DNA of 64,000 nt, taken from Agreia sp. VKM Ac-1783 (lineage in GTDB: Bacteria; Actinomycetota; Actinomycetes; Actinomycetales; Microbacteriaceae). The notes below the pieces were generated by a model, which saw only the letters and a program-made list of their open reading frames with translations, was not told the DNA's origin and searched no databases. Positions 38,078 to 41,029 of this stretch are shown here, one piece after another (the first letter of the stretch is position 1; each line of letters begins with the position of its first letter). A program made the translations under genes and the position numbers. Location of the stretch: contig NZ_FXWI01000005.1 of NCBI RefSeq assembly GCF_900177765.1, positions 186,001-250,000 on the forward strand, written 5' to 3'.

Positions 38078-39658
38078 TCAAATGCGAGCGTTCTTTCTGC
38101 GCGCAGTGATCGTCAGGGCGAGTCCGGCCAGCAGCAGGAGCGCGATCGCTCCGAGCAGCGGTGCCGCGGAAACGCCGGTGAGGGCGAGGCCCGATGCGTC
38201 GCTTCCGGCGGTGTAGGCCGAGGCCGAGTAACCCGCGGTGGTGACGCTACCGGCGGTGACCACCGTGGAGGTGGTCGTGGTCGGCGTGGCCGGGCCCGTC
38301 GGAACTACTGGGTCCGTGGGATCGGTCGGATCCGTCGGGTCGGTGGGGTCCGTCGGGTCCGTCGGGTCGGTTGGATCCGTCGGGTCGGTCGGCGTCGTCG
38401 GTCCGCCCGGGGTGACTGTGGGGTCACCGATCACCGTGATCGCGTTGCCGCCCAGGTCGATCGGAATGTTGATCACCGGAATGATCTGCGTTCCTCCGCC
38501 GATGCTTCCATCGCCGCCGGTGGTGTTCTCCGACGAGCCGCCGGTGCTGCCACCGGTGACATCCGATCCCGTGGTGGTCGGGTCGCCGATCACCGTGATG
38601 GCGTTGCCGCCGACGGTCACGGGCAGGCCCACGACGGGAACGATCTGTGTTCCGCCGAGGATGCTGTCGTCGCCCGTGGTGGTTGCGCCGGCGCCGGTCG
38701 TTCCGGTGCCGGTGCCGCCGGTGGTTCCGCCGGTGACGGCGGAGTCGGTGGACTCGGCGTCGCCGATCAGCGTGATGGCGTTGCCGCCCGCGGTGACCGG
38801 AGCTCCGACGACGGGAACGATCTGTGTTCCGCCGAGGATGCTGTCGTCGCCCGTGGTGGTTGCGCCGGCGCCGGTCGTTCCGGTGCCGCCGGTGGTTCCG
38901 CCGGTGACGGCGGAGTCGGTCGACTCTGCGTCGCCGATCAGTGTGATGGCGTTGCCACCCACGGTGACCGGTGCACCGATGTCACCGAGCACCTGGGTGC
39001 CGCCGAGAACACTGTCGGTTCCGTCGGTGGATGCGCCGGTGCCGGCGGGAACGTCAGACCCCCCGCCCGCCGTGCCTGCACCACTCGTGCTGCCGGTGCT
39101 GCTCGAGTCTCCGATGACGGTGATGGCGTTGCCGCCCACCGTGATCGGGACATCGATGTTCACCAGAACCTGCGTACCGCCGAGCAGCGAATCCGTTCCC
39201 GTCGTTGTGACGGGTGCGGTCTCCGCCGGGGCCTCGGCGACCGGCGCGGTGTCGGCTGCGCCGGACTGCTCCGAGTCGCCGATCACGGTGATCGCGTTAC
39301 CCGACACATCGATCGGGATGCTGACATCCACGATCGCCTGGGTGCCGGATGCGATCCCGTCGTCGCCAGAGGTCGTCGCCTCGGCGGCGGGCTCCGGGGC
39401 CGGTGCCGGCTCAACTGCCGGCTCAGCCGCAGGGGCGGGAGCTGCCTCGGGAGCCGTCGACGTGGCATCCCCGAGGATGCTGATCGAGTTGCCCGAGAGG
39501 TCGACCGGAACGTCGAGGCCGATTGCGGCCTGGGTTCCCGAGAGCAGGCCGTCGTCGCCTGATGTGGTGTCTGCAGCGTTTGCTGCGGCTACGCCGAGGC
39601 ACGAGAGGCCACCGACGAAGAGGGTGAAGTACAGCCCTCTCTGAATGAATTTCTTCAT
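38078..39658 (-). CDS. Secreted chaplin-like repeat protein with LALTG wall anchor
   Basis: A 526-residue surface protein. After a signal peptide (1-28, ending AANA) come seven repeats of about 32 residues (33-64, 97-128, 153-184, 212-243, 270-300, 329-359, 381-412). Each has the form GxxGGTQxxxxxxxPxxxGGNAITxIGD, resembling the chaplin core (V-x-VP-x-V-GN-x-VIG) but without Cys. Linkers are Ala/Pro/Glu-rich, then Gly/Thr-rich. A (TDP)9 stalk, LALTG (491-495), a hydrophobic helix and RRKNARI follow. The anchor implies class E sortase attachment. Chaplin kinship is my inference from pattern. Confidence 0.85.
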   Translation of the reverse strand: MKKFIQRGLYFTLFVGGLSCLGVAAANAADTTSGDDGLLSGTQAAIGLDVPVDLSGNSISILGDATSTAPEAAPAPAAEPAVEPAPAPEPAAEATTSGDDGIASGTQAIVDVSIPIDVSGNAITVIGDSEQSGAADTAPVAEAPAETAPVTTTGTDSLLGGTQVLVNIDVPITVGGNAITVIGDSSSTGSTSGAGTAGGGSDVPAGTGASTDGTDSVLGGTQVLGDIGAPVTVGGNAITLIGDAESTDSAVTGGTTGGTGTTGAGATTTGDDSILGGTQIVPVVGAPVTAGGNAITLIGDAESTDSAVTGGTTGGTGTGTTGAGATTTGDDSILGGTQIVPVVGLPVTVGGNAITVIGDPTTTGSDVTGGSTGGSSENTTGGDGSIGGGTQIIPVINIPIDLGGNAITVIGDPTVTPGGPTTPTDPTDPTDPTDPTDPTDPTDPTDPTDPVVPTGPATPTTTTSTVVTAGSVTTAGYSASAYTAGSDASGLALTGVSAAPLLGAIALLLLAGLALTITARRKNARI

Positions 39659-39768
39659 GATGATTCAACTCCAAAAGATGGTGAGACTGATGAGCTCCAG
39701 CCGCGCGGATGGCGGGGGAGATGGTTCGCTTGATCTGCCCACGGATGATCGGGCAGGTGCGAACTCAG

Positions 39769-40767
39769 TCAGTCAGGAGTCGAACCGAGGTCGAACGTCG
39801 GTGAAGTCGGAAGCGCGTCGTCGGATGCGAGAGCGCGCAGGCTGAGAGCCGCGTGGACGAAGATCGCGCCGGAGATGGATTCGAGTGCCGCAGGCGCGCC
39901 GGAACCGGCTCCGCCGCCCATTCCCTGGCCGCCACTTCCCGACGGAGCGGGCAAGACCACGGGAGAACCCTCCGCAGGCCCGGCAGGTGCAGGGGAACCC
40001 GGGTTCGGAGGCGTTGAAGAGCTGACGGAACCGGCCTGCCCCGGGGCGGGGAGACCAGGGATGGAGCCGGACGAGGTTGGACCGCGGAACGGCGTCGTCG
40101 GCAGTCCAGCTGCGGGCGCTGCGGCGGGTGCCGTCGTGACGGCCCCGGCAGTCGATGGGTCGGCGAGATCGAGGCTCGGAAGGTCGAGACCGGGTACAGC
40201 TGGAACGACGATGCCGGGACCGACCGGACCAGATACCCCCGGGAGCGACGGGACGACCGCGGCAGCGGTATTCGTGACCTGGCCCAGGGTGGTGTCGGCA
40301 AGTGTGACGACCGGCGCCGTGACGGTGGCTGTCGGGGTGGAGCCGAGGATGTCGTTTACAACCGGAACTGCCGCGACGACAGGGTCGACGAGGTCGGTCA
40401 CGGGCTCGACGATCTCAGAGACCGGAGCATCGGGGACCGCATCGATGATCGGAACGACGACCTGCTCGACGACGGGGTCGACGACAGGCTGAACGACCTC
40501 GGCTACGGGCTCGGGAACGATGGCGGTGACGCTGTCGACCACGGGGGCGACGGGCTGCACCACCGAATCGACCACCTGGCTTACGGGCTGGGTGACCCCG
40601 GAAACGATGTCTCCGACGCCGTCGAGAAGACCTCCGTCAGCGTGGGCGGGCGTCGCCGATAGGAATATCCCACCCACGACGAAGCCGGCGCCGACGAGTC
40701 CGCCGAGCAAAAGAAGCCGCAGTCGACTGACGGGTCGGTGCTCTTGGATGGCATCCACGTCAATCAC
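39769..40767 (-). CDS. Secreted Val/Pro-rich repetitive protein
   Basis: About 332 residues from the GTG chosen here. The signal region RLRLLLLGGLVGAGFVVGGIFLSATPAHA is followed by a long stretch where Val and Pro recur every few residues (VQPVAPVVDSV, VVQPVVDPVVEQVVVP, IVEPVTDLVDPVVAAVP), then a Pro/Gly/Ser-rich C-terminal half without a sorting signal. The frame is open to 40887 upstream, so the start is uncertain. It precedes the chaplin-like gene on the same strand by 110 bases. Function unknown; a structural surface protein is likely. Confidence 0.7.
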   Translation of the reverse strand: MIDVDAIQEHRPVSRLRLLLLGGLVGAGFVVGGIFLSATPAHADGGLLDGVGDIVSGVTQPVSQVVDSVVQPVAPVVDSVTAIVPEPVAEVVQPVVDPVVEQVVVPIIDAVPDAPVSEIVEPVTDLVDPVVAAVPVVNDILGSTPTATVTAPVVTLADTTLGQVTNTAAAVVPSLPGVSGPVGPGIVVPAVPGLDLPSLDLADPSTAGAVTTAPAAAPAAGLPTTPFRGPTSSGSIPGLPAPGQAGSVSSSTPPNPGSPAPAGPAEGSPVVLPAPSGSGGQGMGGGAGSGAPAALESISGAIFVHAALSLRALASDDALPTSPTFDLGSTPD

Positions 40768-41029
40768 CCCCAGCGGCTGAGTACCCCCAATGTAGGCACG
40801 ACGTACACGCTCGGTAAAGAAGCTGGGATATTTCGGGTCGAGGAGCTTTCGTGACGAATCGGCGCGTTCAAGTGGTGTGAATCGCACCTGATCATGCTCG
40901 TCAACGAGACTCGATCGGCGCGATCTCGCAGCCGCAACCTCATGCCGTGACTTAATTCAGATGCCGATTTAAACAAGCAAGAATTTCTCGGTTCACGAGT
41001 CCAGATCCTCCGACGGTTACCCTGAGCGC

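Follow-up and report, generated by a model that had tools for sequence, protein, structure and literature searches.

The window analysed in this study, a stretch of 64,000 nucleotides (nt) from Agreia sp. VKM Ac-1783 (contig NZ_FXWI01000005.1, positions 186,001 to 250,000 of the forward strand), carries on its minus strand a gene for an apparently wall-anchored protein with seven chaplin-like modules. The gene (open reading frame (ORF) 38078..39658, ATG start) codes for 526 residues; a partner gene lies directly upstream, and the two are joined by a predicted structured RNA junction. The resemblance of the modules to chaplins looks like true homology in the sequence comparisons below. The strict definition of a chaplin, two cysteines and three GN motifs, is not satisfied, so that by its sequence the protein is a truncated chaplin relative and not a chaplin. 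We believe it somewhat probable that this protein serves as an anchored hydrophobic coat or adhesin and that its synthesis is translationally coupled to the partner.

Relationship of the repeats to chaplins

When the whole protein was compared with the Pfam family ChpA-C (PF03777), a match of 43.5 bits (expectation value E = 2.9e-11, cut-off 21) was obtained in four stretches, and the match of the modules spans approximately positions 6-48 of the 57-position model; three hand-made scrambles gave no match to PF03777. For a profile-profile comparison, a repeat profile (A1) was made of 36 repeats and a chaplin profile (A3) of 18 domains out of eight genomes of one genus, which have 7-10 megabases (Mb) and many PF03777 frames each and which we take to be Streptomyces-like. 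The comparison of A1 with A3 reached a probability of 95.6 and a score of 38.0, with 31 of 35 columns aligned. In the controls, 200 column shuffles reached at most a score of 15.1 and a probability of 5.6, and the reversed columns scored 13.2. The register of this alignment places SPGVLSGNVVQVPVHVPVNVCGNTVNVIG against DDSILGGTQIVPVVGLPVTVGGNAITVIG, and the ordered pattern P-V-x-x-P-V-x-V-(C/G)GN-x-I-x-V-IG is common to repeats and chaplins over 31 positions. An earlier note on this DNA had proposed a multi-module chaplin relative and had tied the proposal to a similarity between the repeat profiles and chaplins; that similarity was found, and both comparisons bear the proposal out. Neither the partner gene nor the RNA junction figures in that note.

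Each repeat corresponds to the first two-thirds of the chaplin domain and stops before the LLNPAFGNxC block. Conservation was followed in 577 repeats from 80 loci, the best 80 of 346 related stretches found by a scan of named genomes; two of these loci (L154 and L174) lie on one contig and have identical junctions, so the number of independent genomes is below 80. Of the 577 repeats, 524 retain the second GN; the first GN position reads GT in 424 and GN in 81, and the aligned repeat ends before the third GN block is reached. At the first chaplin cysteine site, G, S, T, V or A is found in 558 of the 577. Cysteine-bearing repeats number five of the 577, with none among the seven here. All five are the last repeat of their protein (L146, L157, L158, L154/L174): in three, the cysteine falls at model column 31 (NA(V/A)CV.GD), and in two identical repeats it falls at column 27, beside the first chaplin cysteine site. 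Both final repeats of L045 have a cysteine.

As to membership, the PF03777 cut-off is exceeded, and the two conserved cysteines and the three GN motifs are not found. Compared with the long chaplins (ChpA-C type), the protein has more than one module (seven) and a C-terminal sorting signal (LALTG), and accompanying short chaplins are absent: in the scanned genome (3.76 Mb, 7 contigs), the repeat gene is the sole PF03777 frame above the cut-off. Another PF03777 place (C6, 12.6 bits), a frame of 97 residues, was judged spurious, as it has no signal peptide and overlaps with larger frames.

Architecture and sorting signal of the repeat protein

The features of the repeat gene are as follows.

38078..39658, minus strand: gene for the seven-module chaplin-like protein with sorting signal, 526 residues
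39575..39658, minus strand: signal peptide, approximately residues 1-28 (MKKFIQRGLYFTLFVGGLSCLGVAAANA), by inspection; similar in relatives
39467..39562, minus strand: chaplin-like module 1, residues 33-64, 26.6 bits to PF03777 singly
39275..39370, minus strand: module 2, residues 97-128, 28.9 bits to PF03777 singly
39107..39202, minus strand: module 3, residues 153-184, 20.3 bits singly, slightly below the PF03777 cut-off
38930..39025, minus strand: module 4, residues 212-243, singly without Pfam match
38759..38854, minus strand: module 5, residues 269-300, singly without Pfam match
38582..38677, minus strand: module 6, residues 328-359, singly without Pfam match
38423..38518, minus strand: module 7, residues 381-412, 12.7 bits to PF03777 singly
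38309..38389, minus strand: (TDP)9 stalk, residues 424-450, from the sequence
38174..38188, minus strand: LALTG sorting motif, residues 491-495, with a hydrophobic stretch and then a basic tail behind it, from the sequence

The N-terminus has a basic start, a hydrophobic core and an AxA site (by inspection; relatives alike). The seven 32-residue units that the earlier note had placed at residues 33-64 to 381-412 were found again in the ORF (ends at residues 64, 128, 184, 243, 300, 359 and 412), with linkers of 32, 24, 27, 25, 27 and 21 residues between them, and so were the (TDP)9 stalk and the LALTG anchor from residues 424 and 491 onward. The ending GGNAITxIGD, which had been ascribed to each repeat, is present in repeats 3-7, and repeats 1 and 2 end in SGNSISILGD and SGNAITVIGD. 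Absence of every cysteine applies to the mature part; the sole cysteine of the protein is residue 20, within the signal peptide. The likeness of each single repeat to PF03777 held for two of the seven (repeats 1 and 2, above the cut-off) and not for repeats 3 (20.3 bits), 7 (12.7 bits) and 4-6 (no match). NCBIfam gave no meaningful family for the repeat protein, and a PDB sequence search returned three matches only (E 0.091 to 0.86).

The genome codes for three sortases, namely class E (NCBIfam, 248.2 bits against a cut-off of 160), class C and one at C3/L037. A class E substrate is recognised by an LAxTG motif together with a class E sortase in the genome, and both were found here, the motif being LALTG. 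The sortase-anchoring signal named by the earlier note fits an enzyme of the same genome, and the protein is apparently wall-anchored via the class E sortase. The same note had the protein coat the wall; it may do so in this organism, which we take to be non-filamentous. The anchors in the 80 relatives are LAxTG in 68 and LPxTG in four; the eight without an anchor look truncated, masked or frame-shifted. The class C (pilin-type) sortase (237.1 bits; contig C6, L036) adjoins a gene for an LPLTG-ended protein, giving the genome a further sortase system.

Spread of the repeat family

The repeat profile (E up to 0.001) matched 43 of 150 sampled Microbacteriaceae genomes, and PF03777 at E up to 0.01 matched 37 of the 150, 30 of them with a match above the cut-off. 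At the order level (PF03777, E up to 0.001), 18 of 248 genomes matched, nine in the family and nine in other families. At the phylum level, with the stricter E of 1e-5, nine of 296 matched, and these are the Agreia genome and the eight Streptomyces-like genomes. The closest named relative of the repeat protein is from Agreia pratensis, with 80% identity over the best segment. Loci were found in Agreia, Agromyces, Microbacterium, Herbiconiux, Leifsonia, Frigoribacterium, Frondihabitans, Labedella, Mycetocola, Agrococcus, Compostimonas, Schumannella and Janibacter; the remaining ones are some unclassified or metagenome-derived records, one of them labelled Fulvimarina. The best frame of a locus holds 5-11 repeats, most commonly seven (36 of 80 loci). 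In other sampled genomes, complete-looking frames hold 4 to 13 repeats, with fewer at contig ends or frame breaks. No description of the repeat array, the partner or the RNA junction was found in searches of open-licence papers on chaplins and translational coupling, none of which could be directed at the nameless partner.

The upstream partner gene

39769..40887, minus strand: partner gene, directly upstream of the repeat gene, with signal peptide, Val/Pro-rich sequence, a predicted helix chain and the C-terminal ending ..LPTSPTFDLGSTPD

The true start of the partner is probably the GTG at 40758, behind GGGGGTGA. Ten genes of the window were compared with the loci. For nine of them, close relatives are confined to the other Agreia loci, and the few matches elsewhere are distant (26-33% identity; L143, L107, L135). 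The partner is the exception, with relatives in 26 of the 80 loci (BLASTP). A partner was called in a locus when an ORF of at least 120 residues ended at most 450 nt upstream of the first repeat. Such a gene lies upstream in 77 of the 80 loci, ending in PD in 76 and in PG in one; this ending served as a selection criterion and is thus not independent evidence. The three loci without a partner (L107, L109, L181) are cut by contig ends. Beyond the ending, the partner aligns in the 32 sequences viewed, which have a signal peptide, a Val/Pro-rich stretch and a tail like DDxLPSSPVxxTDxSPD.

By profiles, 43 of 150 genomes have the repeat and 41 the partner, a count that composition has possibly inflated; 36 have both, seven the repeat only, five the partner only and 102 neither. 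All five repeat-only genomes examined (G085 and G137 left out) have an upstream partner match ending in ..PD, some of them weak. In the four of five partner-only genomes examined (five places; the downstream gene of G113 left out), the product of the next gene has other repeats, together with a similar signal peptide and an end of the LAxTG or LPQTG type. In L184-L188, the partner and mostly the same RNA fold precede proteins with an LAxTG or LPQTG ending and different repeats. Such non-chaplin repeats behind the partner read, for example, DLGVGGD.. or GDGALVEGGxVGD.., and one frame has 1520 residues.

AlphaFold2 gave the partner a predicted local distance difference test (pLDDT) value of 58, with helices within 62-183 and at 304-326; with low to moderate confidence, this model suggests a chain of proline-broken helices. 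No meaningful NCBIfam family was found for the window's partner or for six partner relatives. Pfam matches of 25 partner sequences were spread among 27 families, none of them matched by more than three of the 25, and were taken as composition; the best were bacterial collagen (1.8e-6, two sequences), CsmC (1.4e-4, two), DUF7217 (0.0011, three) and apolipoprotein (0.0021, three).

The G-rich ribosome site GGGGGTGA (40764-40771 in the window) is common to the partner genes of L115, L136, L146 and L159. Further upstream of partner genes, sequence around TTGAAGGTT is enriched, for example in L111, L115, L118 and L134 (Microbacterium), and TGAAGGT occurs in 38 of 78 partner upstream regions, compared with 1.5 expected from mononucleotide shuffles. 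The TTGAAGGTT element may possibly be an operator or promoter element; it was not found in the 400 nt before the window's partner gene.

The RNA junction between the two genes

39665..39783, minus strand: structured RNA junction, predicted three-way junction, comprising the partner 3' end, the intergenic sequence and the Shine-Dalgarno site
39776..39783, minus strand: 5' arm of the outer helix (TCGACTCC, partner codons), paired with 39665-39672 (GGAGTTGA, Shine-Dalgarno) in the minimum-energy fold
39769..39774, minus strand: 5' arm of the inner helix (GACTGA, with the TGA stop of the partner), paired with TCAGTC at 39685-39690 in the minimum-energy fold

The partner 3' end TCTCCTGACTGA, which codes for S-P-D-stop in many loci, is complementary to CAGTCAGGAG, a frequent ribosome site of the repeat gene. 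The last codons of the partner tail double as an anti-Shine-Dalgarno arm. We folded 77 distinct junctions, taking as partner arm the last 25 nt of the gene including the stop codon plus 8 nt. The four Shine-Dalgarno bases paired with this arm at a mean probability of 0.82, above 0.5 in 65 of the 77 junctions. The value fell to 0.14 when the upstream part was shuffled, and it was 0.11 (5 of 53 above 0.5) in control junctions, which are other predicted junctions between same-strand ORFs of these loci and of the window. The controls are mechanical ORF pairs, not curated genes, and their count was 33 of 92 before positions overlapping the repeat gene were removed and 5 of 53 afterwards. It is the pairing partner of the Shine-Dalgarno site, not the degree of pairing, that is special.

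The z score of the minimum free energy was below -2 in 74 of the 77 junctions, and in most of the folds printed, two hairpins lie between the arms and form a three-way junction. The two arms vary in concert. With their own arms, the junctions summed to -2062 kcal/mol, compared with -1597 (standard deviation 28) when the arms were dealt among loci (0 of 10,000 permutations, kinship uncorrected). For 14 lineage representatives bearing 13 genus names, the values were -349 and -264 (standard deviation 12; 0 of 100,000 permutations, kinship likewise uncorrected). In the loci L136 and L157, which have a TAG stop, the stop stays paired through changes on the other arm; the helix of L186-L188 leaves the A of TAG unpaired. 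For the penultimate proline, 51 of the 77 use the codon CCT and 26 use CCC (these relatives are non-independent), compared with gene-wide shares of 7.6% for CCT and 45.7% for CCG among proline codons. In ten additional junctions, of which five precede non-chaplin repeat proteins, the value was above 0.5 in seven, 0.50 in one, and 0.28 and 0.30 in the other two.

Rfam 15 had no match in positions 39400-41000 of the window at E up to 1, and no match at the gathering score in eight whole loci of the 80. Six hand-picked subgroups of junctions gave very uneven consensus folds, from -1.5 to -49.8 kcal/mol. What marks coupling by RNA unfolding, a downstream ribosome site held by the upstream coding end, is present here in silico.

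Evaluation of the explanations

We propose that a secreted protein with seven truncated, beta-prone modules (P-V-x-V-GGN-A-I-x-V-IG), spaced by linkers on the (TDP)9 stalk, would be attached to the wall at its LALTG motif through the class E sortase. The modules on one chain may associate into a beta-rich, hydrophobic or adhesive coat, which would need neither disulfides nor the separate short chaplins of the Streptomyces style. The protein would be produced together with a secreted helical partner, perhaps amphipathic, from a conserved two-gene unit. The messenger RNA junction would bury the ribosome site of the repeat gene in the last codons and the stop codon of the partner, and ribosomes finishing the partner would open the site, giving translational coupling of the RNA-unfolding type. 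A wider explanation, which we regard as possible and still short of probable, is a modular surface unit of Micrococcales, composed of a helical partner, a coupling RNA and an anchored protein with exchangeable repeats, in which amyloid-type units are concatenated and dosed against the partner. Its hosts would be Microbacteriaceae and some other Micrococcales, with no aerial hyphae, short chaplins or disulfides, and its repeats would mostly be truncated cysteine-free chaplin modules that could be swapped for unrelated hydrophobic repeats.

Several results, on the protein and on the RNA, weigh against the coupled coat or adhesin that we favour. On the protein side, repeats 4-6 match PF03777 in no single test, the modules lack the chaplin cysteine pair and third GN motif, and AlphaFold2 gave repeats 5-7 (44 sequences) a pLDDT of 39 with no more than a hint of strands, which is uninformative on stacking; structure prediction lends no support to amyloid formation by the repeats. 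Three of seven repeats without a Pfam match, short and low in complexity as they are, would fit a convergence of short hydrophobic beta-prone repeats instead of descent, and so would the quite different repeats of the anchored protein behind the partner in some genomes. We consider such convergence very improbable in view of the profile score of 38.0 against a maximum of 15.1 for shuffles of the same columns, the ordered pattern common over 31 positions, and the architecture shared with chaplins (apparent signal peptide, several modules, LAxTG). A second explanation keeps the descent and holds that chaplin ancestry no longer implies amyloid assembly: the protein would be a non-amyloid adhesin or spacer, whose flexible, weakly folded hydrophobic patches attach to surfaces or partners. 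The lack of a stable fold for the repeats in AlphaFold2 and the loss of the cysteines and the third GN block agree with it. Long linkers plus a sorting signal are typical adhesin traits, and the protein has both. Attachment is a known role of chaplins and may, as suggested in the available part of one report, predate aerial growth (PMC4255298). We find this explanation rather doubtful all the same, as most of the 577 repeats retain the hydrophobic pattern and the GN turn (GN in 524), and fibrils are still formed by cysteine-free ChpE (PMC3079736).

On the RNA side, the Shine-Dalgarno site was paired at all with a probability of 0.83 in the real junctions, 0.73 in the shuffled and 0.56 in the control ones, and when the 5' arm was removed in silico, the site was still paired at a mean of 0.64 (above 0.5 in 57 of 77). 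The permutation tests leave the relatedness of the junction sequences in place, and in four of the 14 lineages, the own arm was outside the top two, ranked 4th to 13th. RNAalifold on a plain MAFFT alignment of 56 junctions gave zero consensus pairs, probably because hairpin lengths vary. The gap from stop to start is 110 nt here and 78-134 nt in the 77 relatives; the accessible text of PMC12548453 describes translational coupling as most efficient at short distances and reports that structure right after the stop codon reduces coupling. That last report, the long gap and a site largely paired even without the 5' arm would suit an RNA that is no coupling device but acts in processing or stability (as an RNase III site, for example) or as a silencer keeping the anchored protein at a fixed, low ratio to the partner. 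We think this somewhat unlikely: the pairing uses the very last codons and the stop of the partner, within reach of a terminating ribosome, and the TAG loci L136 and L157 keep the stop paired, though the A is unpaired in L186-L188.

Significance

The chaplin unit waterproofs Streptomyces hyphae, and chaplins are usually described as an invention for aerial growth. The bacteria that carry the repeat array are, we assume, not known for aerial hyphae. Chaplins and cysteine-free chaplin domains are already known; what appears to be new here, on sequence grounds, is an anchored array of truncated cysteine-free chaplin modules. If this is true, a widespread, anchored, disulfide-free, multi-module form would show what the module does without air, for example in attachment, in aggregation or in a hydrophobic wall. 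The array would be a naturally concatenated minimal chaplin, useful for locating the assembling part of the domain. The RNA junction, conserved across genera, is a small element on which possible coupling of a gene pair can be tested, and base pairing could explain part of the conserved protein tail (..SPD) through the unusual choice of synonymous codons.

Comparison with known systems

The long chaplins ChpA-C of Streptomyces coelicolor carry an LAxTG-type sorting signal for the class E sortase. The protein resembles them in its apparent secretion signal, more than one module, the LAxTG-type signal and the PF03777 match. ChpA-C have two modules, whereas seven are present here and 4-13 in complete-looking relatives. 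In contrast to those of ChpA-C, the modules stop after VIG and lack the LLNPAFGNxC block and both cysteines, and long linkers, a TDP stalk, an upstream partner gene and an RNA junction are present; the PF03777 scan of the Agreia genome found no short chaplin.

Cysteine-free chaplin domains have been described before. For example, ChpE without both cysteines still makes fibrils, and the cysteines are unneeded for fibrils in vitro, as stated in the available part of PMC3079736. Similarly, the C-terminal (second) chaplin domain of ChpB lacks cysteine, according to the accessible part of PMC13251363, in which chaplins are defined by three GN motifs 12-13 residues apart. The repeats resemble both in this respect; unlike them, ChpE is short and soluble, and the repeats additionally lack the C-terminal third of the domain.

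Chaplin-like genes have been noted in the non-sporulating rod-coccus Arthrobacter chlorophenolicus (PMC4255298), and the available part of that account does not mention repeat arrays, cysteine loss, a partner gene or an RNA junction. CwpA and CwpB of Actinoplanes missouriensis are class E substrates thought to render the surface hydrophobic and are likened to long chaplins in the accessible part of PMC13251363, where the authors' conclusion is that both lack chaplin domains; the protein described here, in contrast, has chaplin-like modules.

For the junction, the closest likeness is to pairs coupled by RNA unfolding, the coat and lysis genes of MS2 and rpmI-rplT of E. coli (+52 nt), in which, according to the available part of PMC12548453, the downstream ribosome site lies in a structure that the upstream ribosome can open. 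In the unit described here, for which coupling is proposed, the gap is 78-134 nt and is filled with additional hairpins, and several genera share the conserved element.

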